Positions 19,398-49,430 of a DNA stretch of 64,000 bases are shown here, in pieces. The position numbers and the translations under genes were made by a program. Numbering within the stretch: the stretch's first letter is position 1; every line of letters begins with the position of its first letter. The stretch lies in the NCBI RefSeq assembly GCF_010093815.1, contig NW_022985552.1, positions 1,101,943 through 1,165,942 on the forward strand. Reading direction: 5' to 3'. Source of the stretch: Pseudovirgaria hyperparasitica (Eukaryota; Ascomycota; Dothideomycetes; Acrospermales; Acrospermaceae). Below the pieces are notes generated by a model, which worked only from the letters and a program-made list of their open reading frames with translations, searched no databases and was not told where the DNA came from.

Positions 19398-20470
19398 TCG
19401 GGGTTCTCCCGGAGTTCTTCCGGTATATATCGGGTTACTACCGGCGTATACCGGGTCTCTTCCGGTATATATTTCTAGGTCTACTAGTACTAGAGGAGTA
19501 GTAGATATATAAGTATCTATCGGGAGACGTCCTTAGGGTACTTATTAAGCTATTATATAATATCTAAAGTCTTTATAACGTGGATAAGCTATTACTATTA
19601 TATATGGAGGTTAGGGTATATAGCTAGATAGTAGCGTATTATACCTCTCCGGCCGTACGCCTTACACCATAGGGAGGTGTTAGGAACGCCTCTCTTATGG
19701 CCTCTAGTTCAGAGTTAGATAACTTCTATAGGTTCGACGTGCCCTATACCATTAGGCCCTACTCCTGTTTTCGCCTTATCTCATCCCCTCTAGGCTTATA
19801 CCTCCGGCTCTACTAGGAGAGATAACTAAAGCCTCTCCTAGCTAGGTAACTACGAGGTTTACTCCTTAAACTTATAATACTAGCGTATATACCTTATAGG
19901 CGACACGTTCTATCTCTTTATAAATCAATACGTATATCCGTTCTCTCGGGCTATATAGTAGTCTCTCTAGCTAGAATATAATCCTATCTACTTCTAGATA
20001 TACTAAGGGTTAGAGCCTATTAAAGGGGTAAGGTCCTTAGAGCTAGTAGTTACTACTATATACCACGCCCCGCCTTTAAGCATTACTACTTTTCGGTTTC
20101 GCGTTACCTATAAGAATCTCTCTATAATAGGCCGACCATATCTTATAGGAGAGTATCCTCTAAATCCCTTACGTATATACGCCTAGGCGACTTAGGTATT
20201 CTCTTTCTACTAACCCGACTTATTTCTACTACTCTTAAAGGGTCCCTATAGCTACCTCCTACCTATATCTATATACTATTATCTATATACTCTAGTATCC
20301 CACCTCCTACAGTAGACTATAACATCTCTCGTACACGGGAGCCACTCTATCTATTAGTAGTAAAGTGGTATCTCGTATCGAGCGAAAGGTCTTAATAGAG
20401 TCGTGCTACTAGTAGTCGTACTAGGCGGCTTAATAAACGTAGTTTAATACTATAGGAGAGTTAGCTTTAA

Positions 20471-21030
20471 NNNNNNNNNNNNNNNNNNNNNNNNNNNNNN
20501 NNNNNNNNNNNNNNNNNNNNNNNNNNNNNNNNNNNNNNNNNNNNNNNNNNNNNNNNNNNNNNNNNNNNNNNNNNNNNNNNNNNNNNNNNNNNNNNNNNNN
20601 NNNNNNNNNNNNNNNNNNNNNNNNNNNNNNNNNNNNNNNNNNNNNNNNNNNNNNNNNNNNNNNNNNNNNNNNNNNNNNNNNNNNNNNNNNNNNNNNNNNN
20701 NNNNNNNNNNNNNNNNNNNNNNNNNNNNNNNNNNNNNNNNNNNNNNNNNNNNNNNNNNNNNNNNNNNNNNNNNNNNNNNNNNNNNNNNNNNNNNNNNNNN
20801 NNNNNNNNNNNNNNNNNNNNNNNNNNNNNNNNNNNNNNNNNNNNNNNNNNNNNNNNNNNNNNNNNNNNNNNNNNNNNNNNNNNNNNNNNNNNNNNNNNNN
20901 NNNNNNNNNNNNNNNNNNNNNNNNNNNNNNNNNNNNNNNNNNNNNNNNNNNNNNNNNNNNNNNNNNNNNNNNNNNNNNNNNNNNNNNNNNNNNNNNNNNN
21001 NNNNNNNNNNNNNNNNNNNNNNNNNNNNNN
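20471..21030. other. Assembly gap (560 N)
   Basis: A run of N. The LINE-A match ends at 20470 and only about 37 bp of LINE are unaccounted for. The gap therefore probably contains the left terminus of the inserted block. Confidence 0.99.
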
Positions 21031-22500
21031 TTATTATTCTAAATTATATCTTTAGTATATTTAATTATAGTCTTTAAATTTAATACTAGAAAGATAGTAT
21101 ATAATAGAGAGTAGAGGTTAAAAATTAATTAGACTAGGAACTTAAATTAAATAGTACTATTCTAAGCTCTCTCCGACTATATAGCTACAATAAAATGTAG
21201 TAGACCTTCCTTTCTTCTACCTTTGGGCGGTGTCCTTTATCTATTAAAAGGTGTCCTTATCTAGAACTACCTTTAATGACCTTTTCTCCCACTAGACACT
21301 TCCCTCTATATTTCTAGTTACTGTTTTTATTCTCTCTTATATTATCTATTCGGCCTCGTGGTAGTCTATATAGTTCCCTAGCTATATACTAATATCCGAC
21401 TTCTCTTGAAAGTATACACTCTTTATATATAGGTTAAAGACCTAACTTGAACGTCCGCCACCATCTAACTTCATTTTGATTTAAGTATCGGTCGGGGTAG
21501 ATAGACTACTAGTTAAGGTAGCTATAACTAGGGATAATAAGTTAGTAATAGACTCATTCATACTACACGTATATATACTATCATTTACCGTTCCCGCGGT
21601 TACTTAGAGCGGGTCTATACTTAATACCCAAGATGGTATAATCTTATCCGTAGCCACTACCAGTGGTGTAGAACTCTCACCCATATCTAATGGCGTATGA
21701 GATGATTCGAGGCACTTATCCAACTAGTTTAGAGTATCCGACTCATCCTTTTCGTAGTAGTTAGTATCTATATAGCCTCTATAACTTTAGTATATACTTA
21801 TATTACCCGATAGCTTAGACTCCTCGCTCTCGTCTAAGTCATCCACATCTACTTTAGAGAAGTTATCTAGGTTATCTTTATATAGGTTTATATATATAGT
21901 GTCCGGGTCGATTAGTGTTAGTGCTATAAATACTAATACTATTAGTGATTTTTAAATATAGTCGATACGGTAGGGCGCCTAGTTCGACTATATTAGGCTT
22001 AGCGCTCGCTATTCCTCTATATAATTTAGCACGCGATTAGATAAAGGTATATATATATACCTAGTATTAGTAGAGAGCGTGCGAATCTACAGCGACCGAA
22101 GGACGAGTTCGGCGCCCGCCCGCTACTATATTCGTTAAGGGCATGCCTTATTATAATATATATAATAGTAATCATGGATAGTGGGATCGGTCGGAACATA
22201 CTACTATAGTGCTCCTTCGATCTAAGGAATCTTAGGGACTATAGTAGAACTAACTTTAGAGCCTTAATTACTACTAGCCCTATGAATATTTTCCGAGTTA
22301 CGCTAGTATTATACTAATAATTAGTAACACGTCTAACACGACGTAAGTAATATACCTTTACTCCTATATACGCGTTATTACGTATTAGGTTACTTATACT
22401 AGCTTTTCTCTTCTCGGCTATCTCCTAGTCCTAGTATTCGGATACCATCTACCTAACTCTAGAGAGGAGTTAGTAACGGAAGTCCATTATATCTTCCTTT
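21031..22500 (-). pseudogene. Unknown gene on the - strand, left part of the giant element
   Basis: Reading leftward from about 22500, one frame runs to the gap with only scattered RIP-type stops. It has an acidic patch (VDVDDLDESEESKLSG, about 21.85-21.8 kb) and a serine/threonine-rich stretch (about 21.75-21.5 kb). The segment at 21.4-21.76 kb keeps many CpA and TpG, unlike its surroundings. I see no conserved domain. It points away from the transposase, with 1.3 kb between them, so the two may share a promoter region. The start is not fixed and the 3' end may continue into the gap. Confidence 0.5.
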
Positions 22501-23834
22501 ACTAGCGCAATAATATGGGCGGGAGGTGTGTTTTATGAATTATAATTAAGGTAGTGGCCACTAAGATTAATATCTCCGGCGGCTATCTAGGCCGATTATA
22601 CTAGTATCCTAAAACTATCTAGGCTACTATCTAGCTATATATTAAGGCGATCGAATACCGGTGGTAACCGGCCTAAAAACGTTATGGCGATCGAAATCTC
22701 TATTATTATAAGGTACCGGTCTCGTTCGTAAGGCTAGAGACTATCTCTATAGGACCGCCTCTTTTCACGGATAGTTAGTTCCCTCTCTACTACCATTTCT
22801 CTACCTTCTTCTATCGAGCTAGATAGCTAATACGGTGGAGGAGAGGACGTAAGGCCGTTATATCCCCGGTTACTATTACGGTAGGATGTTACCGTGACGT
22901 CTAAGCTATATAGGGCGTTACTACTATATTCGCTACCGGTATACCTAGACTACTAGGTTGTTAGTAGATAAACGAACGCGTCGAGATAAGCTAGATATAT
23001 ATATATATATTTTTTATGTCGATGGCTGTCGTGTAAGTCCCTATTATTAATACTAATACGTATCTACGTTATATCGCATCTTCGTTTACCTATCCCGTTT
23101 AGTTTACTATGGTTACTAGATTATCTTCTATTAGTATTACCGCCACGGTAGCTAGATGGTCCCTTAACCGTCTTCCGTGTTAGAGGTCCTATAGAGAAGA
23201 TATATAAGAGATTAGTAGATATTTTCATTAGTAATGGGTCGGTGACCTACTAGGCGATAATATTAGGTAGCGGGATAATAACTAGCTAGTAGACACGATA
23301 AAGGTTTAGGCGTAGACTAATATAGTATTTTTATAGACGCGTGATGCTTACGTGTTATTATTAATAATTTTAAGCGAGCGTGTATGGGAATCAAGGGGCT
23401 AAGAGCCGGGTAGAAGTCGGGGGTTAGTAGGTATATGTCGGGCTTTCGACGGGCTTACACCTAACTTCTTCTAGTATACGCCTAGAATATCCGCCGTATA
23501 CCGTATTATTACTATCTACTAATGATTATACTATGGTATTTTTCCTTTATAGTAACTACACCTCGAGATGCCACGGGCCGTAGTCTCCTACTAATACTAT
23601 GGTAGAAAGATTAGTAGTATATACTATATAATCCGTAGGCACTATAACTCGGAACCGTGTAGACGAGCACGGCTTGCCGCATCGCTATTATTATTATAAC
23701 CATTAGGCCCGTGGCTACCACTATCGACCGGGTCACGGCGCGGCTTTAGTACTCGTAGTTATATTAGTCGATGGAACTCTTTGGTTCGCTCTATTAGTAT
23801 TTAGCCGTCGAGCGTTAATTAGGAGTCCGAGCCT
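22501..23834. other. Spacer between the divergent unknown gene and the transposase
   Basis: Heavily RIPed, with a TA-rich run near 22991-23010. I see no convincing frame. By position it would hold the promoters of both divergent genes. Confidence 0.4.
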
Positions 23835-26800
23835 ATGGAATTAGGTACTTCTACTACTAATATTACCCTATATAAAGATACTACTATTTTCTCTAATCCT
23901 ATTTCGGACCTGGAATCTATAGACGGCGTTACTAGTAGCCATAGTACCGATTTAGTATGTTAGTCTAATATATATAGTAGAAATGCTATATCTATGGCGA
24001 CGAGGGCGTCTAGTACTATATATTTAACGAAAACGTTCGAAGAGGAGAGCGGTATATATATTATAGTAGACTAGAGTAGACGTGATAATCCGTCCGACGT
24101 GAGTATATATAGTCTAGGTTTATAGTAGTAACTAATTTAGTAGGCCCGATTCGGTTAATTCGATAGTAAGTTTATAGAGCGCCTTATAATATAGACGAAT
24201 CGGTTCGGTATTTCGAATGTAGTATACGATGAATTAACTACTATCCTTAAATAGACTTCCGCTATACCCCCTGACCTTTTTATACTAAAATCTAATATCA
24301 TACGTAAGTAGTTATTACACCACCCTAAAGGGATACCGCACGAAAGTTGGCAGCGTAGCTACGATATATTTAGCACTACTATAGTCGAATACTAGTATAG
24401 GGATCCGCTTACGTTAGTGGAATTCCTCCTTAGATACCGACCGTTCGCTAGTAAGCTCGTGTTTAAGCTAGTACGATAATTTACTAGTATAGGCGACCGG
24501 GTATATAGTAAAGCCTATATAGTAGATGGTTAGTAGGATATATATGCTACTATTCCGGATAGTACCGTCGTTATCCCTATTATTTTATCTTCGGATAAGA
24601 TAAACCTTACTAACTATGGTAGTAATAGAGTAGCATGGCTAGTCTACCTATCTATTTATAATCTACCACTAAACGTCCGCTTATCTAGGAGTCTACCATT
24701 ATTTCTACTACTTACTCTATTACTAGTAGTTAAGCTAGAAACGGTAGCGAATCGCTTTATGTTCTATTAGGTTATAAGTAAAGTTCTAGCCCGTATATCC
24801 GCCCATGATAGAGTCGTTAACTATACTAATTATTATATAGCGTTGCAGGCTATATAGAGTACTAGAGTATTAGTATTATATGCCGATGGCGGCTCGCGTA
24901 AGTACTATCCGCGTTTAGCTTTATATATTATAGATTTTCCGGAGTAGATACTTATTACGGGTGTATCCTATCGGTATACATGTCTAATATATATAGTCCC
25001 TAGTAATAGATGATAGTATCTACGAGAAGCCATTACTAGTGTATAGGAGTTCCGTATATACTCGTCGTTATAGAAATAGGTTTACCGTGTACGTCACGAG
25101 TTAATAACTAATAGCTACGGTAGCGAGTATACTAGTAGTAAGATAGATAATAGGACGAGTGTACCTAGTGTCTTATCGTTTTCGTCGACGTCTTTCGCGC
25201 TAGTAGTATAGGGCCATTATATTCGCCAATCGGTTAAGAGTCGGTATTCTAGTAGGTGGATAGAGCCATTGGATAATTTCGCCTAGTTACTTACTAGAGT
25301 TAATATACACCGCGCGGTCGCTCCGGACATTCTATATTAACTATATAAGGGTATATTAGAACATACGTTTAATTAGATAGTCTTGTATATTATTAATTAA
25401 GAGCGTACGGGACATAAGTTAAAGGGTATGTTTACTAGTATACCCCCTATAGAACGAGTAAAGAAGGCGATCGATAAGCGATTCGCGTCTATTAGGGTAT
25501 TCGGTTGTTATAACCTACTTACGTGTATAACTTTAGTAATATAATAGACGGGGGTGATGTTTAAGCGTATGCTAGCAGTGTTCATGGTCACGTTTAAACC
25601 GCTCCTATATTATAATTGACACTTCCTAAGCGTAGTGCGGGCGGTTATTAATATATATATGTTAGCGGTATACTATACGCATGATACGTAGACACTAGTA
25701 TACTTAGAAGAGGCTATATTACGCTTAGACGACCTGAAATACTAGTTTATACTATATCGTGGAGATAAATCGGAGGATAATTATTTTAACTTTCCGAAGT
25801 TCCATATATTATCGCACCTGGTCGATGCCATTAAACACCATGGTTCGTTATATCTAATATCGGTAGAGCTACTAGAGCGATCTCATGTCGTAGTAAAGAA
25901 ATTATATCGAGGTTTAAATAAGAGGGAGACGTTTCTATAGTAGATACTAGTAGTAGATATACGCACGACGAATACTAAAATCTCTAGTAGTATAGAGGTG
26001 GCGGCTAGTACTAGTATATTAGTAGCCCCTAGCCTAGAGTAGCTCGATGATATACGTAAGCTAGTCGGCTAGCGGCGTATTCTAAAGAAGCCACGCCGGA
26101 GTAAATATATACTCTACGTCTTATAGAGCTATAGACTATCTACGTCCTACTAGACCACTGTCGGCGACCTCCACGACGTGTATAGTAGTAGTTTCATGTT
26201 ACTCGATACGGTTACACCCTTTATACGCAACTATTATAATCGGCTTATTAGAGATAATATATCGAAAGGTATAAATGTCGAATATATTAAAAAGGACCCT
26301 TCGTAGACACGGGTTCTTCCTATCTATATGTACGAGACCATGCACGTACCGATACGACTAGATAGAGATATATCTATAGAGGCCTTTGACCCGATTCGGG
26401 TAAGGTATACCCATAACTAGTAAAAGAGTGGTAAGGCCAGGGAGGATTATATAATAGTATAGGAGTTTAACGAGGGCAGTAACCACCTTAATAGGAAGCG
26501 GGTTAGTAAAGTCTATATATTTCTAGAGGTATACGATACGGAGAGCATTAACGTAACTAGTAGTATAGCGGCGCGATTCCTAGGTGCGTTAGTTAAACTA
26601 CTTAATAACTTAGGTGGAGGTAATGTTAATACTATTAGTGGCCTTATACCATTACGTATAGCGGGTTAAAGGTCTAGTAATAAGACTCGTACGATGGATA
26701 GGTTCCGTGTCTACGAGCTAGAGCATGTCCTACGCCCTATATAGATTATATCACGTTAGTTAGTTACGGATAGTTTATTCTAGTTAAACACGTATAGTAA

Positions 26801-27086
26801 TTAGGGGATCTATAACGAGGTATATAACCTAGACTTCTAGGCTATAAATAGACGAAACGTGACCGTAGTATTAAAACACGGGCGCGTGTCGTAAGTCTAT
26901 CGCTATCTACCGCCGCCTACCGTAGTATACTAGCATATGCCGGCATATGGCGGAAGTTATGGTTTATATATAGTAGCACTCGATAGTCGTATCCTACACT
27001 AGGATATCTCTAAGGAATGATCGTGGTTTATTACGATCGGTTCTATAAAAGGCTTATATTTAATAACTATCTATAATTTCAGCTAA
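23835..27086 (+). pseudogene. Plavaka-type transposase (CACTA superfamily relative), decayed
   Basis: A single frame of 1,084 codons from ATG at 23835 to TAA at 27084-27086, interrupted only by RIP-type stops. It matches the Plavaka transposase pattern. A segment of the kind VVIPIILSSDK...LTNYG (about 24.57-24.61 kb) is followed at once by AWLVYLSIYNLPL (about 24.63 kb). Next come DGGSRKYYPRLALYI and FPEQILITGV (about 24.89-24.96 kb), where the family has its DG...P..A...DYPEQ.LV block. The length fits the family (about 1,000 residues). The product would act in the nucleus to cut and move the element. RIP has placed stops across the whole frame, so this copy is dead. No zinc finger is obvious at the N-terminus. 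The family call rests on motif order recalled from known proteins. Confidence 0.72.
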
Positions 27087-27260
27087 GGAGCATCCAGGGA
27101 TGCACCTCCTTATTACCTAATAATTACCAGCTAGCATGAAAACTCCACGCCTCTAAAAGGGGCACATAGAACTTAAAGGATCCTCGTTCACGGGTAGAAC
27201 CAGACATGGATAGCATTAATCTAACACAGATAGATTATATGTATTAATACCCTAAAATCC
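27087..27260. other. RIP-spared spacer after the transposase
   Basis: CpA and TpG are frequent here (for example CATCCAGGGATGCACC near 27092), in sharp contrast to both sides. No gene is seen. It may be single-copy sequence that RIP did not recognise. Confidence 0.6.
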
Positions 27261-28366
27261 GAACTATGTCTCTAGGCCTACTAGACCTAGCTCGCACCCG
27301 ATTCTAATGTTTTTATTATTCGCGTTTATACCTTATTAGATACCGGGCATATAACGAGTCTATGGTTAAGTAAGTATTAGGTACGTGACGAGTCTATTAA
27401 TGAATAAGTGCCGGGTATATAACGAGTCTATGTAAATGAGTATAAATAAGTATATGCCGGGTATATAACGCTCTTACTAGGGAAACGTCTTCCTTAAGTA
27501 TCTCCCCCTCCTAATGTTTCTCCTTCTCTTCCTTTATTCTTTCCCTAGCCTTATAAGTATAGTTAGACTTATATCGCTATATTATTAATGTATACGTTCT
27601 TATATAGACCGTTAGAAACTATAGTAACTAGATATACGTTCTCGTGATAGATAAATATACCGTACTAATGCGTCGCATTATTCGTGTTTAATATAAGGGT
27701 TCGCTACTATAATCATTCGTCGTTACGCTCGTCTATCTCTTCTTAACGATAGTACTAATTAATAACGACCTATTATAGAGATGATAGTTAGCATTACGTA
27801 CTTCTCTTAAATATTCATATATTAATGTTACATAAGCATATGCTTCGCGGAGGTCCTCTATCCTTCCCTCGAGCTATCTAGACCATCCCCTAATCGCTAA
27901 AAACTCTTATATCTAACTATTTCTACTATTTGTTCCTCGGTTCTACTCGTTAGGCTTCGAATGATAGCGAACCATGACGGGTTAGCAGTTATCTATATTT
28001 CGCGTACGCCGAGTTAGTATGCCTAAATATAATAGATAATAGTATGTTTATAATAGTATATACTAGATCTCATAGTATTCCTCTTTAGCGGTAGATCCAC
28101 GTGGTCGCAAAGACGGCCTACTATCCTATCGTGCCTATATACTACGCTACTCTTTTATCGTATATAGATAGTATTACTAGAGTAGGGCTATCGCCCGGTA
28201 AACTTAACGTTATATGTGGAGTATTATATATTTAACGTCGTTATTTCACGTGCCCTATGTTAGTACGGGATCGGATGCCGGCTATATGTTTCCCCGCCTC
28301 CATTAAATTAACGAGTTATTACTAAAAACTATACGGACTACTCGCGTTAATGTAGCCGTAACGTAC
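27261..28366 (-). mobile_element. Possible LTR-retrotransposon remnant on the - strand (fossil)
   Basis: From 27541 down to 27261 the - strand repeats the motif order of the Gypsy-0 end: an A/G-rich run, GATACTTA, then ATACCCGG units (three direct copies of CCGGG(T/C)ATATAACG at about 27344, 27411 and 27459 on the + strand). A - strand frame ending in a basic RKRRRN tail lies just upstream (about 28.06-27.49 kb). I read this as the 3' end and LTR of a Gypsy-type element, but no diagnostic domain is seen. Broken. Confidence 0.35.
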
Positions 28367-30480
28367 ATGTTATATCTACGCCTATTATATAGTATATATA
28401 TCTCATCTCTCTATCACCCTAGTAATATATACTATTCCCTATTCCGTCTACCTATAGCTACGTCCGGCCAGCCGCGAATAAATAGCCGAGTAGAAGCGAG
28501 TCTCGACCTACTTCATATATTTAGAGCGTCCGACAGGCAGAAACTTCGGGTATATATAGAAGAGTTGATTTAGGAGGAATTTACTAGCCTATTACTAAAC
28601 CTACGTAGTAAGGAAGTAAAGGACCACCACATAAAACAAGAGCGTTGTCTATAGATAGTCGCGGATGAATATATATTCATTAATAGTAGTTATACTATTT
28701 CACGGGTAGATACCATATATTAACTTAATACTATATTCTTGGTATTTACGCGTAACTGGCGGCGGTTAGCTAAATACCATCATATACGTTAAAACGATGC
28801 CCCGGGCTAGACGAGCTATTATAATATTATATATACCCCACGAACCCGCCTAATATATCTAGCTAACCTAGTTATTCGACCGTCGGACCACTAGTGTCTA
28901 TATCTCCTAAGGTAGCCGTGCCGCCGTGTTATATATATATGCCTATAGTCCTTATCCGCGATCGTACTCGGGTCACCCTAGTACTAATAACGGCTATATA
29001 GAATAGCACGACGCCGTTAAATATTAAGGGTGTAAAAATACGCGATATAGTAGGTCTTAGTATAAATAAACTATTAGAATTTATTAGCTCGTCTATGGAT
29101 GCACTAGGGGACGTAGGTGGTTATAGGCATAGTCGCGTCTACCTAGAGTACCCGATTCTACCGAGCGAGTCGAGTGATATAATCCTTTATAAGGATAGTT
29201 TAGACTAGGTATTATAGTAGGCTATTAAATAGGTACTAGGCTTAGGACTAGATCGGGTGGTTTTCCGCGTGGGCGATATAAATAGTATATTTAGAAGCCT
29301 ACTATAACGTGTTAACTATAATCTAACCATATAGGAACGTCGCGCTATGAGTATAGTAGCGGGATTTATCCGTCTAGCGCGCGTAGGTGAGCTCGAGATA
29401 TATATACGCCGATAGATATCGGCATATATCGATATATTACGACTACTAAGCGGTGTATACCGATGTATACCGGCATATCTAGTATATACCGGTATAATGC
29501 CGTCGCTCTTCCGTGGATATAATACCATTTATATATCTTAGGTTTTCGGTTATCGGTTACGTATAGTGTTATATACACGGCGGATACCTTACTAGATTTA
29601 GGTCTTTCGTTAATAGTATATAGGTACGCCCTAGTCCACTCGATATAGGCGTAGTTAACGCTTTACCCACTTAAACGATAGACGTTAATAATGACGCGAC
29701 TAGTATATTTACCTATTATATTATTAGCTAGCTAACGTTATATTAGGAGAGTCGAGCGCCGCCGTCCCGCCTAGTCTACCCGTTAATGTTAACATGCTAG
29801 CGATTACAACCTAATTACCTTACAAATCGACATATAATACTAGTGCGCTCGAGAGTTCGAGCGAACGTATAAAAGTCCGATATTATATACTATTTAGGGC
29901 CGGGGAGGAAGCGTCTACCGGCGTAGTGGTTATCAAGGTAATAGTAGAAGTCTATATATAACTAGATATACTAAGTCCGCCTCCTTCTTATATAGTCCTA
30001 TTACTAGATAATATTACCGGTTTCGACATTACGGGAGAGGAGTTTATAGATACGAACCCATGAATATCGGCATAACATCGGCTCGATAGTACGTATTATA
30101 GTATAAGGCAAGTTATATTTAAGCGGTAGTTAGACACGTGCGCTAGTATACTAACGGATATATAGTATCTCTACTATGAATAGAATAGGTAAGGCATGGC
30201 TAGTAATATCTTACTATCTAGAAGAGATAGTTACCGTAGAATTTGGGAGATAGGCTCGGCGTCTATAGCGTTAGTATGTTAGACGGTTAAACTTTTATAT
30301 AATACTATTTACTTATACCTATATTTACCTAAGCCCCGATTCGATAGCCTTCTATAACGTACTATATACTCGGTCGGCGAGCTACTAGACTCATATAATA
30401 GTAGTATACTACCCCACTTTATATACTACTTAAGCTACTATTACTTTAGCCTACGTTAATCTTAGCTTCCTTTAGTCGTC
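28367..30480 (+). pseudogene. Unknown gene(s) in the giant element
   Basis: An open frame starts at ATG 28367 (YLRLLYSIYISS...) and reads well to about 28.9 kb. From about 28.9 kb another frame of the same strand carries the best reading to about 30.48 kb, so there is either a frameshift, an intron, or two genes. Visible stretches include VLIRDRTRVTLVLITAI, a leucine-rich segment and LPSESSDIIL. I considered a tyrosine recombinase but see no catalytic R-H-R-Y order. It lies between the transposase and the helicase, all on the + strand. Function unknown. Confidence 0.45.
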
Positions 30481-30730
30481 TCTATATTATAAAAGAAAAC
30501 TTCTATAAATCTTTCCTCTACTTATCTTGGTTTTTAAACCTAAATCTTACCTTCTATACTTTATTCCGTATTAATTATAACTATATACGAACGCTGCGTC
30601 GAACTCGACTCTATTAACCCTTAAGGTCTATTCTATATAATAGTTAACGAGGTCATATTTACAGTTTATAATATGGATCAAGAACTCGTTATATTTGGCG
30701 ATATTTAGGACCAGTCTACACTCGACGTGA

Positions 30731-31098
30731 TTAAGCCTTACGTTTAAGCCGAGTCTCATATTCAAGTCGAGCCTTACGTTCAAGTCGAGCCTTACACTTA
30801 AGTCGAGCCTTACGTTTAAGCCGAGCCTTACGTTTAAGTCGAGCCTTACGTTCAAGCCGAGCCTTACGTTTAAGTCGAGCCTTACGCTTAAGCCGATCCT
30901 TACGTTTAAGCCGAGCCTTATACTTAAGTCAATCCTTACGTTTAAGCCGAGCCTTACGTTTAAGCCGATCCTTACGTTTAAGTCGAGCCTTACGTTTAAG
31001 CCGATTCTTACGTTTAAGCCGATTCTTACGTTTAAGCCAAGCCTCACGTTTAAGCCGATCCTTATATTCAAGCCGAGCCTTACGCTTAAGTCGAAGCT
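30731..31098 (+). repeat. 18-bp minisatellite coding a hexapeptide repeat
   Basis: About 20 copies of an 18-bp unit, consensus like CCGAGCCTTACGTTTAAG. In the helicase frame it encodes (A/V)-(E/D)-P-Y-V followed by a codon that is now TAA in most units and CAA in a few, so the original was (A/V)EPYVQ. The copies stay in phase, which supports coding use before RIP. There are no spacers, so it is not a CRISPR array. Confidence 0.9.
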
Positions 31099-34000
31099 TA
31101 CGATACGACTACCGTCTCGACCGATAATAAACTACTTATCTTTAGTATACTTACCGGTAACTACCGTCCTAACGACGAGTATAAACTTAAGAAGGTCTAA
31201 AGTAGTAAGGCTCCCGTTCCTACTTACGCCACCTATTAGATCTCTCTTATATAGGGTAATCTATAGTTAACCTTTAGGAATGTCTATAGTATTAGTAGAG
31301 AAATAGATAGACTTAAGTAGGAATAAGCGAAAACTTAAGCCGAGCTTAAGCTAGTAGTATTTAAGGCTCGTGGTAAAGGTTACGGCTTCGAAGAGTCGAT
31401 TAGTTATACATGTAGATTCCTTAAATTCCCTAAGTACCGCTCTTAGATTAAGTTACGTGCTCGCTTCCGATAGATTAACGAAGGGAAATCGGTATCCTTA
31501 ATAAGCTTACTCCGCTTTAATCGTACTAACATCCTTCTATCGTCCGACCACCCTACGGTATAGATCTTTAAGGTTAAGTAAGTAGGCGACTTCATTAAGT
31601 ATTTTCCTAAACTTCCTAATCTTATTATAAGCAAAGCGGATAAAGCCAATATACTATATATTAATACCGGCCTCTACGAAGACCCTCGCGACTTTTAGAT
31701 TATCGAACTTATAGCTAGCGAGCTTCTTGGTGTAGGTTTTACTATTCTATTATATATTAGACCCGATATAATATATAAACGAGTGAAGCAATTCTTCGAA
31801 GATCTAGGTGCTTATACTATAGTTTGTATCTTGCTACTACTACGTGACCCTATGGATCTTACCGGCTTTAATAATAAGCTTAAACTAGAGAGCGATCCGA
31901 TTAATTCATGGCATGTAGGAGTTACTACTCCCTATATATAATACGGTATAATAAGTAGGCCGGACACTTAGCCCTAGATCTCTATTCCCCACCGCGAGTC
32001 ATTTAATAAGAAATTCGACTACCTAATATATATCGCTATAAGTACCTTATAAGACGAATAGGCGGATCTCCCATTATCCTAATTCCAAGACGTTACCGTC
32101 GGGTATATCTAGCTCTCAGGTGTTACTCGGGCGCTCTTGGCTATCGTCTATCCTATTAATACGAAAGGATTCCATCGTATGGAACCAGGTAGTCGTGGGT
32201 ACCTTAAAGTAGATTTAAAGGATTATAATGACGACGCGTACCGCTTTAAAGTCCTTTAATTTTGCCTAGGCGTCCTCCTATTCGAATACCTCGCTCTAAA
32301 AGTCTTTAATAAGGTTAGGCGTCCTCCTAAAGCATCTAAGGTACCGATTATATTAATAGATGCGGTTACTAATATAACTCGAGCTCGTCCTAAACATTTC
32401 ATTCGGACTAGCGACACTAGTTTAAGTATAATTAGGTCATCCCTTACTACGCTCATGGGGTTCACGGACGTTCCGGCTTTAGTTAGCGTATAAACCTATG
32501 ATAAGCTTACTAAGTAACGCATTAATACGTGCTAGAAACTAACCTACCACGCCATGTAAGCTCCTAGAGACGGCGGCGTAGACGACCACGCCGCTTAGAA
32601 TGCGTTTAATGCGATAGTCCTTAATGTTATCGTGGACTCGGTGTCTATATCTCTAATGTATGGGTCCCCTAACCCTAACGATAAGATTCTAGATTATAGT
32701 ACGGAGCCTTAGGATACCCTCGTTACTCTTTCTAAATTATCTATATCCCTAGATAATAATAAGGACACGAATATAGAATATAGTCACGATGTTATTAGCG
32801 ACGAAGGTTCCATTACTAGCCCCGTCGCCGATACACACACACTCCTAATATCATCCAAAGTCCACTCTAGTATCCTATCCCCTTTGCCACCCTCCGTATA
32901 GAACCTAATACTCGGTAATAACTACCTGAATCTTTAACCCGTTAACTATAACCGCTACGTTAAAGATCATGAAAGATTCTATAATCTCTAGGATATCATA
33001 CGTTCGGAGCTATCTCCCTAATAATAGTATACCTATATATAGACGACGGACGCACTTAGGGCTTAGTTTCTACTTCACGGCTATGGAGGAGCTAGGAAGA
33101 GCCATTTATGGCTTCGTCTACTACTAGCTACACTTCTAATTAATAAAATGAACGGTGCTCCTGTTATCGCTCATACTACCAAGGTAGTTATCCTATCTAG
33201 CGATGTGACAGCGCACCTCCCTACGCTAGGTTCCACCTAAACATGTAGGATATATATATATGTTATTATCGGCCTAACTAACGAAACCTACGACGACGCT
33301 ATAAGAAAAGCATATAAATATACGAGTAATATATTTACTCGCTATAAGTCTCTAAAGATACCGGTCGTTCTTCGAAGATGCCCCGAAGCCGTTAATCGAG
33401 AGGTTTTCTTTACTATAGCTAGACTATCTCGTCGCGGCGACCCTCTTATCGGGCTAACCTAGAATAATATAATAGGCGGTGCCATCCTCGTGTAAGCCTA
33501 GGCCGACTATAGTAAACGACCATCGGAATATAGCACGGATCCCCGTGCTCGTCTATAGAAACTATATACCGGTTACATTACGCTCGAGGTCGTTAGACTC
33601 GTTAAATCTCGATACTAATACGAATAGATCCCTAAGAATTTCGAGAAAGAAACGGCTCGGCCATTACGCACTATCTATGAATATTACGCTTATAATAAGG
33701 ATATACCTAAGGAGGAGTATAATAGGATAAACGAGCTATACCTCGCTACCTAGGACCTAGTTACTATCCACGCCTAGATTCATGTAGGGACCCTATATGT
33801 TATGAATATCGCCAAGGTAGCCCGTAATATATATCCGATTTTAGTCGTGATAGAAGAGGCTACGTGTATCCTTAAAAGTGATACACTCGGGATTATCGTT
33901 AATTATACTACTATGGAATAGTAACTAACATTTGTTTACGTCGGCGACCTACGCTAGCTCGACACCTACTAGCGTGATAGTACTAATATATAGGCCGCGA

Positions 34001-35092
34001 ACTAGAGGATCTCCTTTATAAAGCGCTAGATATAATATAGTTTCCCGACCACTCGCCTTACCAAGTTAGAACGCTTAGTTCCTAGAATAATAAACGTTAT
34101 ATCGCTAATTACTTACTCGGGCGAGCTAACGACCTCGCCCTATATAATAAATAATATCGATATACCACTCGTAGAGACCGTTCGATAAATATTTGGAATC
34201 CGCGGCTATCGACACGTTATATACGCCAACGTCGACGGGGATCACGCGCACATAGTAAATAACTTAATATATAATATAGACTTATTGCGTTTCACTTAGT
34301 AGATCATTACCGAGCTCTTCTATTATGGCGTCGCACTCGATCGCGTACTCTATATTTCTATATACACCGCCTAACGTGATCTATTTAAAGGGATAGTTAG
34401 GAACTCGCTTCTAACTATACTTGCCGCAGCGGATAAAGCTCGATTTAATACCCTACCCAAGCTAGTATAGAAGCTTGTCCAATGGCGTTTATAGGACGGT
34501 TCTTAGGGTCATAATAACGATATAGTCCTTATTAACCCGGTCTAAACTAATCGCTTCGGCTTCCTCTCGGAAGTAAACCGTAACGTCGTTACTATTACGC
34601 GCGCTAAATAGATAATAGTTATTATCGCCAACTTCATATCTCTTAAGAGGTAGAAAGTCCTAGACGGCGTACTCGGCGAGATATAGAATAAGTACTCTAA
34701 GATTTATGCGACATACACGTGCACGACCCCCGACCTAGATGGCCTCCCTCCACTCTCTAATATACCTAATCCCTAATACGGTCGCTCTATACTTAGTATT
34801 AGAGAGAGGGGAGAACGAAGCGATTAATAAACTACTAATGGTACTAAGCCCCGTAAGCCGCTAGTCTACCATAAATATAACGTCGAAGAATATAAGTCTA
34901 TTAAGTGTCTAAGAGGGTCGACGCTTATATATAATAACTATTAGGACATCGACTATAAAGCTAATGTTTACCCTAAACCTAAGACGCTTACGGGTATATT
35001 TTACTATAATTATAGGACTACCGGTTATACTCGGCGTTATTATCCTAGCCGTACTAAATTACCAGCACGCACAAATGGTAATAATCTAGTTA

Positions 35093-35172
35093 ATGCTACT
35101 AGAGCTAATGCTACTAGAGCTAATGCCACTAGAACTAATACTACTAGAACTAATACTACTAGAGCTAATACT
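35093..35172 (+). repeat. 15-bp repeats in the helicase C-terminus
   Basis: Five or six units like GCTAATGCTACTAGA, coding NATRA/NTTRT in the helicase frame. They sit just after the zinc-knuckle-like motif and look like a linker. Confidence 0.85.
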
Positions 35173-35577
35173 ACTAACGAAGTAACTACTAGCGGCTAGA
35201 ACGATAGAGACTACGAGGATACCGGCCGAGACGGCGGTGTTACGACATATAAAGACATAGAAGTCAATTAGTAATAGTATACGATTAGACTTACGTGTTA
35301 GGGCTACTTAGTCACGGCTTCTTAGTAAGTACACCTCTATATCCATTTTAGTTATAGTTATGACATCCTACTAGGTAGATAGTTTAGCTCTATTAAAGAC
35401 CTATTAAGGGTATTTCTATTACGTCTACTCTAGTATAGACGCGCTATTAGATAATATAGCGCCACTAGGCACGTTAACTAGTACCCACCGATTAAGAAAT
35501 AAACACGATTCTATATCTACCGCGAGCCCCGGCCTAATAACGTAGGCTTCCTTTAGTTATCCCCTTCATACTTTTAA

Positions 35578-36190
35578 AACTACTTCTAGCCTTTATATCG
35601 GGAGATATTACTACCTAAAGAGAAAATATAAAAAAACATACGCCCTAATCAAAGCCTCCACCTTTAGACTTTAACTATAATATATACGGGATATAGTAAA
35701 CCCAAATATCGCGTACTTTAAAAGCATGGAAGGATACGACACTCGAATACGACGAAATACAGGCTCACGATACTCGGAGAGTACCTAGGGATAAGCATAT
35801 GAATATAAAATGGGATAAGACCAACGCGGCACCTCGTACATGCGTAGCCATATACCGTCCTAGACGTAGTCGCCTACGATATGACATTGCGAGATAAGAA
35901 TCATAGCTATCCAATTCTATTAAGGGTATTAGATAACATAAAGTGAATAACTACACGCCCGACCACGCCACGCCAAGTCACGTGCGTGTTATAAACGCGT
36001 GTTTAAGGAACAATAAGGATACAAACAAGGTTCACCTAGTAGGTGCCTCGTTATTCCGGCTTCTACCTCTATCGTCCGACCTATACCTCCGTCTTCCTCG
36101 CGCCTATAATATACCACGCGTATACTATATAATTAGTCCGTAAATTATAAACACTATATTAACTATATACATTAACTACATACGATTAAC
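35578..36190. other. Spacer between the helicase and the next gene, partly RIP-spared
   Basis: CpA and TpG are common between about 35.6 and 36.06 kb (for example ACCACGCCACGCCAAGTCAC near 35962), so RIP acted weakly here. It holds no clear gene. It should contain the terminator of the helicase and the promoter of the next gene. Confidence 0.6.
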
Positions 36191-37346
36191 ATGTCGAATC
36201 CGATTCTATAACAAAGTAACCGTCCGAATATAGTAATTGCCATAGCACTACTTCGCATCTTAAGCCTAGATATATAAGTAAAGCGTAAAGCTATAGAGGC
36301 GCGTATAAGGTAGCTATATATAGAAGTATATACGGCTACTCTACTCGTAGACCATAGGTGTTAAACTAAGAATGAGCTCGGCGTAAAAAGAGCACGTAAG
36401 ATTATTAATAAGGTAGCGGGCGAATTCCTAGTAGTATAGGAAAGAGTAGTAGAGTGCATAGAGATGAAGGCGCTATACTATATCTACGACCAGGTACACA
36501 CTATAGTATAGAAAACCATATATTATAGAAAAACTATCTCCGAGTATAAGAAGAGGCGCGTAATTATAGCCCTATATCCCACGACCTTATAATCCCCGCC
36601 TATTACGACCTTATAACCTCCGCCTATCGCGATCTTATAACCCCCGCCTATTACGACCTTATAGCTCTTATATACCACGACCTTATAGCCTATACTCGCA
36701 GCGGTCCCATAGCCTACTAATATACATACTACGAGAAAAATCAAATTTATAATTAGGTTTAACGACAACGTATTCCTCGAAATACTAGTATCTACGTCTA
36801 ACTAGTAGAAAGACCATAGTGACGCTTCGTGTATTAATTCGATAGTATTTATACGGCGAATTAGGGTCTAATACGTAACGAAGACTAGGAGGGCACTTAA
36901 CTAGAGCCGTGCTACCATACATTCTATCGTGCTAGTGGTTAAGTATATAATAAGTAAAACGGAACTAGAGGTAGATATTAGATAGCTCCTATAGTTAGTA
37001 ATCGAATATGTTCTAGAACATAGTAATAGTATAATACTCCTCGGCCTTAGATAGAATATAGATAGTATACCCGAAGTAAAACGAAATATAAACCAGCGAC
37101 TAATATATAATAGTATAGACGGCTATATATAGGTTACACTCGAATAAATCCGCCCCTCCGTCCCTAATGCCATACTCGCTATAATTAGTATAATAATAGT
37201 AATAGAAAGCTACCGCCTACGACGGTAGAGATACCTATAGAGATAGTATTATAGGTAGTAGATAGCATTACCTAAACGACTTAACCCTTCCTCTAGCGAT
37301 ACTATATATACTACTATCGGCACCCGGGAAGTCGCGAGACCGACCT
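36191..37346 (+). pseudogene. Unknown open region upstream of the SNF2 gene (separate gene or its N-terminus)
   Basis: It starts at ATG 36191 (MSNPIL...) and reads in one frame to about 37.35 kb with RIP-type stops. It has a helical, basic stretch (KNELGVKRARKIINKVAGEF, about 36.37-36.43 kb) and a short internal repeat coding PPITTL-like units (about 36.58-36.66 kb). From about 37.32 kb the best reading passes to another frame, that of the SNF2 gene. This could be an intron or indel within one gene, or a separate gene. No domain is recognised. Confidence 0.45.
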
Positions 37347-40300
37347 ATAAGCTCTAAAGATAGTGACTTCGAAAGCCTTAAAAGTACCTTAGATATAGAG
37401 GATATAGATATCGCTTTCGAAGACTAATAGGATAATGAAAAGGGTGCTAGAGGTAGTAAGAGTAGCGTGCGTACTTGGCTAAGGCGATGCGATCCGACGT
37501 AAGACGGCTTCTACCTACTATATATTAGTATATACCCGATTCTACTAGCTATATAACTATGGCGCACATGTTTGGTTAAGATATTACGATACTAGTATAA
37601 GCCGGCGTCTACCTAGTTCACGTCGGGATACGCCCGGTCCTACTAGCTACATTATTACTACGACTATAATCGTATAAGATCCACTCTAATAATTAAACAT
37701 TCACTTATATACTTTACTTCCTCCGCACTTATTAAAATTACGTTATAATCGCTAAACGCGGCGACTTAACTCCTACCGCCTAAATCTAGTTTTCATATCT
37801 TATCGCCATTAACGCCGTCTTACTATCTATGGCCTAAGTCGCACATAGGAATAGATAGGCACAACGAGAGTTACGACTATCCTAGTTTAACTACCGGCCA
37901 TAGAATAGCTAACCGTAACACGCATATACGACGTGCGGAGGCCTTAAGCGTTAGCGCCCTCCTACCTTATATCTAGTACCTCCGAGGCCTATACCTAATA
38001 CCTAAAATAAGTTATAATATATATAGGGCTACTATTATTAAGATAGTAAGTAAAGAAGTAGTAATAGAGCTTAAAACTAGTAGTATAGATACTACTATAC
38101 TCTATAGAATAGTTAAGGAAACCGTTACTAGAGAATTCAATTAGCATATCGCGGCTATAAATAGTAAGTTAGTACCGACGGTTACGACCATAGATATAAT
38201 AGAGGCTAAACTAGATATAGATACTATAGGCATAGGTACGTAGACATAGTTACCGCTAGAATATAAGGAGAAAGATAATATAGAAGATACTGAAATAGAA
38301 GACAACGTAGCTAGTATACTTAGACATATATATATATACACGGTCCTAGATACTAATATTATCGGAGTAGTGTCGAATACAGGCGCGGTTATGACTACCG
38401 ACATAGATAATCTATCTACGAATATCGTCGTGCCTAGCGAAGCTCATCCACGCGTAAATACACTAGCCATAGAGATATAGTTATAGTTACCGCCGGAATA
38501 TACGGAGAAAGAGAACGTAGAAGATACTAAAATGGAAGACGACGCAGCTAGTATACTTAGACACATATATATATATATGGTCCTAGATGCTAACATTAGA
38601 GTAGTGTCGAAGATAGGTACGGCTATAACCACCGACATAGATAATCCACCTACGAATGTCGTCGTGTCTAGTAAAGCTTATCCACGCGTAAACACACTAG
38701 CTATAGAGACATAGTTATAGTTACCGCCGGAATATATAGAGAAAGAGAACGTGGAAGATACTAAAATGGAAGACGACGTAGCTAGTATACTTAGACACAT
38801 ATATATATACATGGTCCTAGATGCTAATATTAGAGTAGTATCGAAGACAGGTACGGCTATAACTACCGACATAGATAATCTACCCACGAATATCGTCGTG
38901 CCTAGCAAAGCTCATCCACGCGTAAACATACTAGCCATAGAGATATAGTTATAGTTACCGCCGGAACATGCGGAGAAAGAGAACGTAGAAGATACTAAAA
39001 TGGAAGATAACGTAGCTAGTATACTTAGACACATATATATATATATAGTCCTAGATACTAATATTAGAGTAGTGTCGAAGACAGGTACGGCTATAATTAC
39101 TAACATAGACAATTCCCCCACGAATGCCGTCGTGCCTCTAGATACCGGCGAGACTTATCTACGGCTACTAGAAACAAAGAGGACACTCTTAGATAATATA
39201 GTAAACCTGGTCGATTCTCCGAAACGCCTAAAACTAGAACATATTATACTACTAGATATCGACCGGTAGACACGTGAAAACCAGGAACTGTTCGGGTTAG
39301 TAGATAATTTATATGGTAGATATATATCGGATAGTGCATTAGCGAACGGCCTTAACTTTAAAATTCTTTCTATAGACGACGACTCTAACGGAGACGAAGC
39401 AAAGCTAGATATAGAGGACTTGATTCCGGTAGATAACGATGTTAGTACGAAACTACAGGAAGCGTAAGTTATACTAAGAAGTAAGTAGGAATATACACTA
39501 CCATACTAATGTACCTATAGAATATTCGCCGTTAATAACTCCGATAAAGTAGTCTAAGCTATCTCTTATTATATAGAAGAGATGCGGTCACTTACTATAA
39601 GTATGTTTAGGCTTACGCTAGACGACCTAATAAAGGAGTTCGGCCATACACCTACTCTATATCCAGCCTTTAGTATAAGTGGGTCATATAGGCCATGGGC
39701 CGGCCAGTTACTCGCGGTAGTTACTATATGCAAGTAGCGGGCGGGTCCGTGGAAGTACTAGATCTTAGTAGATAGCCTAGAGCTAGGGAAGATAATCGTG
39801 CTTATAATATTCATCCACCTCGCGTTTTATTAGGACTTTCTACACGATAACATAGAACTTAATCTAGGAAATCACCTATAACCGACTTAAGACTCGGGCA
39901 TGGATAGGAAGTGCCCGATATAATCTCTGCATCCGATTAAATGTCCGTGTAGCTAGACCGATAATTTCGTCTATATGCCCCGCCTTCGAGGACCATTTAT
40001 ACTATACTACCTAAGGTCCCTTCTAATAGCGTATTGGCCGCAGCGCTTTAAATAGATGTATAACGATACGGATAGCATGTTCACCGATTAAATTAATAAA
40101 CAGAACCCGATAAAGATAATAGTACGGCTAGCGTACTCAAAAACCCTTACCGACGCCCCTAGTATCCGATAATTCTCGTATATAGACCGATAATACTTAG
40201 CTAAGAGATGCCTACACCCCGAATAGGAATACAGCGTCGATATTAGTAATACTACTAAATTCGAGACCGACGAGAAGTATATTATTAGGGCATGGTCGAT

Positions 40301-42021
40301 TCCCGTTAATAGGACCGCTACCACCGAATTTCCGTCGCGATACGCGAAGAACCATATAATCTATAGCACTATCTAGAGTGTGGAACCCTAATATCTTAAA
40401 TCTTTTAAGGGATGTGTGGTTATAAGAGTAAAGAGGGCGAAATAATTTAGTACTAAAAACACTTAAACTCGCGAAGTAGCATTCCTTAGTATATTAATAG
40501 TGGACGAGTTCTATTCCGCAAAGAACCCCGATATAAAATAGTATAAATATACGATATATAATACCCTTATATTTAGTATATAGGTTAGTGTAACGCCCCT
40601 CTCGAATAGTCTAGTAGATATTCTAGCGGCTATTAAGGTAGGTGCTCCGGATAAGTTACCCGACTACGTCGATAATAATACTACTAAAAGGGTATTCGAG
40701 AGCCTATAGAATAAAACTATAAGAAAGATTATTATAACGTGGTCGAATAAACTCCTTAGTTTAATAAAAGGTAAGTCGGCGGACATGATGGCCGCGATAG
40801 TCCGTAGGGCATTAGAAACCATAGAAGGTAAGCGTACACTACGTATGGTAGCCGATTAGTATTTACTATTCATCCTATAACGGGGACTACTAACTAAATG
40901 GTTTAACGGAGAGGCATGTCTATCCACGACATCAAAGCTAGTAGTAGAGTTTATATCCGTCCCGGCCATAGAACTAGAGAAGATAATTATATAGTTATAC
41001 GAGAATAGAGGTAGATAGTTTAATAATCCATAGCCTAATAGAACGCCGCGGGACTCGTAGGTATAATCTACCGCCTAGATTAAATCGAAAGAGGGTACCG
41101 GGTCCGGGCTTAACGCATACTACCATTAGGCTAGGCTAGCTACTACGTGTGCACCACTTATATACCTTACCGATAAAAAGATAGAAGACGAGTAAATTAA
41201 TATCACGCTCACGCGTCGGAGGGATAGTAATAATAGTATACCGAGTAAGATAATCGCTAATCCCGTACGCGAAGCGCTCCTATAGCTAGATAAGGCCATG
41301 CGAAAGGAGATAGTATTACTAGCTAATAAATACGCTTCGAAGGTAAACTAGATCCGTAACTTTATTAATAATAACGTTTATAATAAAAGTACTAGACGCG
41401 CGCGACGAACATCCGCCAACTACCCGGAGAAAATCGTACTCATATATACCGTACCGGCAAGCTTAATGTTCCTATACTTAGTGAGTATTTACACTACCTA
41501 CTAGTAACGTAATTCACTAACATATATAGGTACTACGTCCATATGCACAAGCGAAAATATTAGTATATTTACCAGCCGGCCTAAGTACGTCCGAATTAAA
41601 CAAGGTATATAGATTATTTAGGTCGACCAAGTCGGATTCTCCGTATATTCTACTAGTATTAGCTTCGTAGGTCTATGAAGGACAAGACCTAACAGTCGCC
41701 GGTTTTATAGTATTAGTAGACTAATGCTTACGTAAGGAGACGTGGCCGTAGGTAAGTATAAGATATTATCGCCATAGATAATATCGGCCTATAGTATATA
41801 CGTATACTTTGATTTTAGACTATTTAGAGGTCGAGGCTAGACTCGCCGCGTTAGGCAAGGTAATCGAAAGCACGAGAATATAAGCCTTAGACCTAGGAAA
41901 AGGAGATATAGCTACGGTAGAGATAGCCACACCTAATATACTAGTAATAGGCGTACGCTTTAATCCTATAGAGATATAGTAGTATAGAAGTAAGTAAGGT
42001 AGTCGGTTAATTAGCTTCTAA
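37320..42021 (+). pseudogene. SNF2-family ATPase/helicase gene, decayed
   Basis: The frame is legible from about 37.32 kb. The N-terminal part ends in four in-frame tandem repeats (38.22-39.14 kb). The ATPase follows. Motif I reads ILVDSLELGKII at 39762-39797, where the family has ILADEMGLGKT. Motif II reads VDEFYSAKN (DEAH box) at 40500-40526. Motif III reads VTPLSNS near 40.59 kb. The second RecA lobe begins at EKIVLIYTV near 41.43 kb. From about 41.67 kb the reading continues in another frame (EGQDLTVAGFIVLVDQ-like, then YRHRQYRP, the place of motif VI) to a stop at 42019-42021, so a frameshift or small intron lies near 41.67 kb. Known SNF2 proteins remodel chromatin or translocate on DNA in the nucleus. 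Here it would be a cargo or accessory gene of the transposon, which is inference. Confidence 0.68.
38220..39140 (+). repeat. Four 234-bp tandem repeats in the SNF2 gene
   Basis: The unit holds MEDNVASILRH (38298, 38532, 38766 and 39000, spacing exactly 234 bp, 78 codons), then HIYIYMVLD, GTAITTDIDN and HPRVNTLAIE. The spacing keeps the frame. The copies differ mostly by transitions. The last copy is partial. Confidence 0.9.
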
Positions 42022-42119
42022 GAGACTAGATAGCATGGTAGTATAAATACGAACCGCTGTTTACTCGTGATAACATGTCTATATATATCTATACATAAAG
42101 AGAAATAAGATATTTATTC

Positions 42120-42436
42120 TATACCATTATATAGTAGGACGTTACTATATATACCGGCATACAACGGAATATTCCGACATACGCCGGTATATTATAGGAT
42201 ATTCCTAGATACTCGAAGTATAGTCGTAGTATAAAGTAGCATTACTATTATATGCCGGCATATAGTAGAACGTTACTACATATGCCGGTATACAACGGGA
42301 TCATGTTCTAATATACTATACGCCGCTAGTATATTATAGAATATTCCTAGATACTTGAAGTATAGTCGTAATATAAAGTAGTATCGCTATACTATGCCGG
42401 CATTTAGTAGGACGTTACTATATATACCGGCATATA
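42120..42436. repeat. Palindrome-rich repeats near the right end of the giant element
   Basis: Three diverged units with spacing of about 131 and 141 bp share AGTAGGACGTTACTATATAT (42132, 42263, 42403) and end in a TATGCCGGCATA-like palindrome or half of it. The two inner spacers share GAATATTCCTAGATACT(C/T)GAAGTATAGTCG. Repeats of this kind close to a terminus are typical transposase-binding subterminal repeats of CACTA-type elements. Confidence 0.65.
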
Positions 42437-42469
42437 ATAGGATTAAACGTTTTCTTAACGTTCGATAGA

Positions 42470-42640
42470 ACGATTCTAAAAGAACCGGGATAGCTCTAGG
42501 AGAACTAGAACGACTCCGGGAGGACTAGGACGACTCTAGGAGGATTAGGATAACTCTAGAAGTACCGGGACGACTCTAGGAGGATTGGGACAACTCTAGA
42601 AGTACCGGGACCCATTTGGGATAACTTTAGAAGTACCGGG
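42470..42640. repeat. Degenerate minisatellite at the right border of the giant element
   Basis: Units of about 22 bp alternate ACTCTAGGAGGATTGGGA-like and ACTCTAGAAGTACCGGGA-like sequence. It lies between the subterminal repeats and the place where LINE-A resumes (about 42671), and is non-coding. Confidence 0.75.
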
Positions 42641-43045
42641 AGACCTAGAAGCATTGGGAGCGCCGTATCTTTCCTAATGTTCCTAGAGCCGTTTAAGCCT
42701 TAAGGTATCCTATCGCGCTACTAGGACCTCCGCTTCCTCTACCTAGTTAGTAAGATAGATTTAGGCCTGCTTTTAACATAGTAGTAGCGCGTTAGGTGGT
42801 TTTCTTATCCCTTTATCCTCGTGAACTTCTCTTAACGCGTTAATTAGGGATAGAATAGAAGTATATACTTCCCTAGCTAGGTTATGTTAGCGTGGTTTAG
42901 TAAGGTAGACGCTCCACGAAAACTCTTTAACTATCTATCTAGCGACGACTAGGTCGCCATTAACGCCGCTCCGAACCTCTTACTACCTCTATAGAGGCAT
43001 TGCCTAGCTACGACGACGTGGACGCGGTTCGTAAGGCTTCGTAGC

Positions 43046-43420
43046 CGTTACTATAAGTATAGAGAAATAGAATATATTTCGTCTAACTATAAGAATCCGA
43101 AAAAAGAATAGACTAGTATATGAGACCTAACTATATCCTTAGCTAAATTATATATACTTAGGAGGAGCCGTAGCGCCTTCCGGCGAGTAAAGATCTAATA
43201 TTACTAAAAGTATTATTATCTATAGTAAATAGTAATAAAACTATATAGGCCCTCGTAGATACTAGTATAGAAGATAACTATATTTTATCGATTCTCGTAA
43301 AGGAGTATAGATTATCGTATAATCTCGGTAAAGTTAGCCGAACTATCGTAGTTAATAGATATAAAGTTAGAACTTTAGGTAAAGCTATAACGAATTACGA
43401 AGTTTATAACTCGAAGATAA
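43046..43420 (+). mobile_element. Gypsy-1: end of gag and protease (fossil)
   Basis: It starts with the LINE-A target duplication and continues the zinc knuckle begun at 19.1 kb. A retropepsin-like region (ALVDT, near 43.25 kb) follows. The TRIM-like element cuts in at 43421. Confidence 0.8.
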
Positions 43421-49297: not shown

Positions 49298-49430
49298 TAT
49301 TAGAACTTAGCCTTACTAGATAGGACTCGATCTATATATACCTTAGCTAATAGAGTTAGAAGATAACGTAAAGGGCGGTAAATAGTTACGTGCTAGATAG
49401 ATTAGCGTCCCTTTATATATATACTCTCGG

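Follow-up and report, generated by a model that had tools for sequence, protein, structure and literature searches.

A RIP-inactivated 22-kb PlavakaB-like transposon with an SF1 helicase and a putative SNF2-like ATPase in the ascomycete Pseudovirgaria hyperparasitica

The genome of Pseudovirgaria hyperparasitica contains a large multi-gene PlavakaB-like transposon that has moved as a whole unit, between CATCA..TGATG terminal inverted repeats (TIRs) and with 2-bp target duplications, together with genes for a transposase, an SF1 helicase, an SNF2-like ATPase and a DUF6532 protein. The copy described here lies in a window of 64 kb, i.e., the whole stretch of DNA that was analysed (C4:1101943-1165942; the assembly has 35.0 Mb in 59 contigs, written C1, C2 and so on), and all comparisons between copies are confined to this one genome. 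We read it as a cut-and-paste element of about 22 kb that was killed by RIP after moving whole with its four genes, and whose two ATPases belong to it as helpers and are not chance passengers (we give this reading a probability of about 0.78).

The element interrupts a host repeat. This had been proposed in the original prediction and is borne out by the flanks, which both match a single uninterrupted copy in the same window: positions 19696-20470 match 50620-49846 at 97%, and 42679-43064 match 49796-49411 at 94%. The proposed edges had to be revised. Position 21031 was rejected as the left end, since it is merely the edge of an N gap past which the sister copies continue; they extend about 496 bp further leftward and end there in the inverted repeat of the right end. 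The left terminus of the window copy thus falls within the N run, at about 20,520-20,535. From the empty site, the hidden left flank amounts to 49 + 3 = 52 bases, so that almost the whole 560-base run is explained by 52 + 496 = 548 bases. The right edge moves from 42665 to 42679, the junction with the empty site. For comparison, the copy on C26 measures 22,112 bp between its termini. The features are listed in Table 1.

Table 1. Features of the element and its surroundings, in window positions.
Feature	Position	Strand	Basis or remark
Left flank, within the interrupted repeat of the host	19696..20470	+	Match to the uninterrupted copy
N run	20471..21030	.	Conceals the left TIR, ~52 bp of flanking DNA and ~496 bp of element sequence
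Whole PlavakaB-like transposon, ~22.1 kb	20535..42679	+	Left terminus approximate (inside the N gap); colinear with C10 and C26 over 21031-42678
DUF6532 gene remnant	22095..22529	-	Pfam PF20149, E 1.8e-7, over cutoff; gene absent from the original prediction
Plavaka transposase remnant	23400..26468	+	Extent approximate; Pfam domain (PF18759) at 24372-25004, E 5.2e-27, over cutoff
Helicase-frame array of 18-bp tandem repeats (six residues each)	30734..31102	+	Repeat analysis
SF1 (Upf1/NAM7/ZNFX1-type) helicase remnant	31102..35100	+	Extent approximate; AAA_12 domain at 34048-34632, Pfam 3.6e-9
Probable SNF2-like ATPase remnant	38001..41698	+	Extent approximate; motif I ~39762-39791, DExH box 40500-40511, motif III 40587-40607
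In-frame 234-bp tandem repeat preceding the SNF2 motifs	38246..39137	+	Repeat analysis
Palindromic subterminal repeats	42115..42443	.	Repeat analysis
Subterminal repeat, seven copies, mostly 20-bp spacing, beside the right TIR	42465..42641	.	Repeat analysis
Right TIR	42638..42679	-	Extent approximate; reads inward 5'-CATTAGGAAAGATACGGCGCTCCC; sister copies show unmutated CATCAGG
Target duplication, right copy (TT, 2 bp)	42680..42681	.	Empty-site junction and analogy with sister copies; left copy hidden by the N gap
Right flank, same host repeat continuing	42682..43064	+	Match to the uninterrupted copy
Uninterrupted copy of the host repeat, the empty site for the window insertion	49411..50620	-	Junction near 49794

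The termini of the sister copies are inverted repeats beginning 5'-CATCAGGAAAGATAC, mostly changed by RIP to CATTAGG. The unmutated CATCAGG is found at the left end of the C9 copy at 0.35 Mb and at the right end of the C14 copy; the other ends of the main family read CATTAGG or TATTAGG (the latter at two main-family ends and at one on C37), changes that RIP would produce from CATCAGG. The 2-bp target duplications match in all six copies in which both ends are readable, and they read TA in C26, C9 (0.35 Mb), C14 and C20, TT in C6, and CG in C11. The palindromic repeats predicted at the right end were found, together with 20-bp repeats. Two further places match just the outermost 1.05 kb or so of the left end: C23:45001-48000 (203-1268), with no N run beyond, and C37:1201-4700 (1499-2563), where the match halts at an N run and the terminus bears the variant base of the right end.

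Empty sites were also identified for other copies. In the left flank of the C26 copy, the C6 site is present without an insertion, and repeats of the window hold uninterrupted versions of the C26, C6 and C9 sites. They also hold that of C20, although some 9 bases at the junction do not align. The C26, C6 and window copies are inserted in one repeat, which is very common (40 of the 277 candidates scored) and was not matched by 13 flanks from nine other copies. A target preference for this repeat was rejected on these two grounds. The shared inverted termini, the duplications in six of six readable copies, the different flanks and the empty sites all argue against a segmental duplication or a nested pile of unrelated repeats; we regard this as extremely improbable, even if later insertions do break some copies.

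When three segments of the element were used as DNA queries, the genome gave at least 44, at least 50 and at least 40 matching places. The C10 and C26 copies align to 21031-42678 in one block, with 93.7% and 92.8% identity, and for those of C6, C9 (0.35 Mb), C14 and C20 the alignment is split into blocks by insertions or N gaps (six other copies compared in all). Among the DNA matches listed, those of the main family are about 90-95% identical. Intermediate copies (C21, C52, C8, C23) have 70-77% identity in SNF2, and more diverged ones (C30, C17, C7, C9 at 1.47 Mb and others) have amino-acid identities of 53-56% in SNF2 and 69-79% in the helicase. Diverged copies, e.g., C30 and C17, still carry the gene set.

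We then counted how often the genes occur together, using 28 helicase loci built from 44 listed matches (broken matches were merged and seven weak ones omitted, three on C15 and four on C4). Among the matches listed, the helicase is preceded by transposase DNA and followed by SNF2-region DNA, each on its own strand and within 30 kb, in 18 of the 28 loci, and in three of these 18 (C5, C8:924k, C1:2.72M) the SNF2-region match covers only the upstream part; the remaining loci have the transposase only (four), the SNF2 region only (five) or neither (one). When a match to the SNF2 protein is required, all three genes occur in strict order, on the same strand and within 30 kb, in 15 of the 28 loci, the others having the transposase only (seven), SNF2 only (four) or neither (two); this count used 22 merged SNF2 loci and 22 of the 29 transposase loci, short or far pieces being omitted. 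The gap between transposase and helicase is 4.65-4.93 kb in 15 of the 22 loci with both matched, and that between helicase and SNF2 region is 1.95-2.00 kb in 19 of 23. Some misses are technical: the left half of the C6 copy is an N run and the C52 match starts at contig base 1. The check proposed with the original prediction, that the genes recur in the same order between identical TIRs with short target duplications, thus gave a positive answer (15-18 of 28 loci, with 2-bp duplications throughout the readable copies), and the order, TIRs, duplications and empty sites support the grouping of the transposase and both helicase-type genes in one mobile unit.

Transposons can capture genes, and the ATPase genes could be passive cargo, picked up from the host by a Plavaka element on one occasion and carried along since without assisting it. 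Such carriage would fit the seven of 28 helicase loci that have a transposase and, within 30 kb, lack a match to the SNF2 protein, from which it follows that loss after insertion is common. However, further misses are technical (C8:1655067 lies at a contig end, and the C34 SNF2 match lies about 46 kb downstream), and copies with no more than 53-56% identity in the SNF2 protein still have both ATPases, suggesting long retention. We consider passive carriage rather unlikely.

The marks of RIP extend across the whole window. Per 4-kb block, (CpA+TpG)/(ApC+GpT) ranges from 0.11 to 0.39 and TpA/ApT from 1.5 to 2.2, and the blocks at 20-44 kb are milder for the former (0.29-0.39 vs 0.11-0.26 in the flanking blocks). 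No ORF of at least 150 aa occurs anywhere in the 64 kb. Stops make up 5.2% of the transposase frame, 5.1% of the helicase frame and 3.6% of the SNF2 frame of the window copy, and 152 of the 155 stops in these frames are TAG or TAA. The transposase of 1,084 codons and the SF1 helicase of 1,635 codons that had been predicted are retained as domains, both over their Pfam cutoffs, but not with these codon counts. The antisense frames have similar or lower shares of stops (5.3% for the transposase, 5.9% for the helicase and, with fewer stops than the sense frame, 2.8% for SNF2), so the choice of strand and frame rests on domain matches and motifs. RIP of the host inactivated the copies seen, and no gene of the element is open. 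All 25 Plavaka matches of the genome contain stops, and their coordinates all fall within places matched by the DNA searches with the element, none outside this DNA family. A search for ORFs as stretches free of stops in every copy present returned only two, over the 18-bp array, since stops are shared between the copies.

Some other properties of the window and the genome were recorded. Window positions 2880-10000 are GC-richer (up to 0.545), unlike the remaining window, and contain a tandem repeat of 88-bp units (2880-3157). A search for plasmid DNA gave no match. The genome has 77 HET-domain matches; HET families of such size are typical of Pezizomycotina, in keeping with a filamentous ascomycete as the host.

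The genes were identified by Pfam scans of 21031-42700 with an X at each stop, in nearly all six frames (outside the scan lie one minus frame of 42002-42679 and, for 21031-22499, the plus frame whose codons start at multiples of 3). In this nearly complete six-frame scan, only Plavaka (5.2e-27), AAA_12 (3.6e-9) and DUF6532 (1.8e-7) exceed the curated cutoff, and the scans recognised no domain in 26.8-30.2 and 35.2-37.6 kb. LPP20, DNAJC11, C2c1, EOS1 and TPPII_C were rejected (E 0.012 to 0.1, below cutoff where one was shown). The AAA_33 match near 38702-38869, below cutoff at E 1.7e-4, was treated as spurious, as it lies in the 234-bp tandem repeat in another frame. The C(2)C motif of the transposase is obscured by RIP: its first C is kept in five of eight copies and its second position is Tyr in all eight, TG to TA being a RIP change. 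The H(3-4)H positions have a mixture of H and Y across copies. All nine DUF6532 matches of the genome lie inside copies of the element, each time in the orientation opposite to that of the transposase. In Ganoderma, Plavaka and DUF6532 are listed among the extra domains of two species in the accessible text of PMC8955403, a listing that does not in itself show linkage.

The helicase domain AAA_12 was found in all five copies scanned (best 2.1e-9). Relatives in the PDB are ZNFX1 (6e-4, and 9e-5 with the helicase profile as query), NAM7/Upf1 (0.013) and SEN1 (0.1). Helicase sequences also occur outside the element. In the window, 52404-52862 on the minus strand matches the helicase profile (E 1.3e-23). 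C2:593501-601500 has an open 178-aa frame (3626-4162, minus strand), whose matched part (C2:597267-597653) is stop-free, 40% identical to the element helicase and adjoins an AT-richer patch (GC 0.37); as a side reading, this may be a relic or a host-kept piece of a little-mutated relative. C10:986501-993500 has an open 262-aa frame (3119-3907, minus strand; C10:989895) with AAA_12 at 3.1e-11 and 31% identity to the element helicase; it is not among the element copies in the DNA matches listed. Finally, a distant lineage with 47-50% identity is present at C4:1060722 (C4:1058501-1076500) and C15:837091 (C15:833501-841500, 1929-5810, plus strand).

These sequences bear on whether the helicase belongs to a separate family, mobile or of the host, that joined a Plavaka element only in this lineage. 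The less mutated fragments at C2:597267 and C10:989895 point that way, as does the third lineage on C4 and C15, where the transposase and SNF2 profiles are unmatched in the 26 kb around. Yet these surroundings comprise only 8 and 18 kb and are mutated, so that a transposase could have been lost or have diverged, and we judge a separate origin of this kind to be unlikely.

The SNF2-like gene is the weakest call, and we consider it quite probable that the frame at 38.0-41.7 kb encodes such an ATPase. SNF2 motifs I, II and III occur in order, the window copy reading ILVDSLELGKIIVLI ... LIVDEFYSAKNP ... SVTPLSNSLVDIL, with GLGLGK and DEFHSAKN as the readings in some sister copies. Pfam SNF2-rel_dom was detected in four of seven main-family copies (0.0023 to 0.076, all below cutoff), where the match extends in register from motif I to motif III; one of three more diverged copies has it over motif I only. 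A phmmer search aligned the region of the DExH box and motif III to CHD1L at E 0.38. When the profile was compared with eight host SNF2 proteins, the score was 40.9 (E 1.5e-4, probability 52%, over only 61 columns), and lower, 38.1 (E 4.3e-4, probability 34%), with three diverged copies added. The control profiles scored 21.2 (transposase) and 20.9 (helicase), with E near 0.1 and probability below 1%. The SNF2 score is about twice that of the controls, which speaks for the call. No SNF2 relatives were returned by the profile search of the PDB, by phmmer with two sister copies or by NCBIfam, and no Helicase_C half was recognised. The SNF2 ATPase of the original prediction is thus upheld mainly through the sister copies (motifs, sub-cutoff Pfam matches and profile), the window's own copy having no Pfam match to SNF2-rel_dom. 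Stop-ridden SNF2-domain matches are also present within about 20 kb of contig ends (C10:16947-17501 and C2:20396-20956, minus strand; C3:2316127-2316672, plus strand), and perhaps represent a different, subterminal family of repeats.

The large size and the several genes of the element might also suggest a Starship, a Helitron or a viral (Maverick-like) element. Starships are defined by a captain, a DUF3435 tyrosine recombinase. Neither this captain nor PIF1, Helitron_like_N, capsid or polymerase was found at E 0.1 in the nearly complete six-frame Pfam scans, in which RIP lowers sensitivity; these scans likewise listed no Rep nuclease of Helitrons, target duplications are present, and the ends are of Plavaka type. 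An assignment to any of these classes is thus hardly credible.

The closest known system is PlavakaB (CMCT clade), with which the element shares a Plavaka transposase, termini 5'-CATCA..TGATG-3' and 2-bp duplications (2 or 3 bp in the accessible text of PMC12730594). There, Plavaka is placed with EnSpm-like elements with D..E catalytic residues, and its families are reconstructed from Agaricomycotina. Some of these Plavaka families carry a TET/JBP gene according to the same text, whereas the element described here is from an ascomycete and carries an SF1 helicase, an SNF2-like gene and DUF6532; the TET/JBP family was not listed in our nearly complete six-frame scans. The main text of PMC12730594 does not contain the word SNF2 and mentions helicases only for Helitrons. 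Plavaka has been reported more widely, e.g., in Rhizophagus (PMC11075540), and the available portion of PMC11244446 describes large Plavaka-linked 'giant repeats' with other genes in Amoebidium. The latter differ in belonging to a protist relative of animals and in consisting of tandem gene clusters, many encoding tyrosine recombinases. AcademH and KolobokH are also eukaryotic DNA transposons encoding a helicase, but with DEAD/Helicase_C domains in the text seen of PMC10799480, instead of an SF1 AAA_12 helicase and an SNF2-like protein with a Plavaka transposase. A Plavaka element with an SF1 helicase, an SNF2-like gene and DUF6532 is not described in the accessible portions of PMC12730594, PMC11244446, PMC11075540, PMC8955403, PMC8290104, PMC9674265, PMC7473861 and PMC10799480 (the last makes no mention of Plavaka); an earlier account may exist in Iyer et al. 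2014 (KDZ/Plavaka) or Kojima 2020 (AcademH). PlavakaB-type ends, described from Agaricomycotina in the part of PMC12730594 available, are now placed in a RIP-mutated ascomycete genome.

We infer a helper role for both ATPases in the movement of the element. The transposase would bind the terminal and subterminal repeats, excise the unit and insert it elsewhere. The SNF2-like protein would most likely remodel chromatin at the donor or at a silent target, and the Upf1/ZNFX1-like helicase could unwind DNA or RNA in transposition or repair, or shield the RNA of the element from surveillance. RIP of the host would then have inactivated the copies seen. A bolder proposal, which we put forward only tentatively and think rather improbable, is that the element represents a deep ascomycete Plavaka lineage with a multi-protein transposition system, in which the SF1 helicase and the SNF2 remodeller are essential: the SNF2 motor would make silent donor or target chromatin accessible, and the helicase would counter RNA-based silencing or process the long element, enabling large cut-and-paste movements into silent chromatin. 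Many cut-and-paste transposons move with little beyond a transposase. That a 22-kb unit has kept two nucleic-acid motors through diverged copies suggests machinery of its own, for access to chromatin, the handling of long DNA or the escape from silencing.
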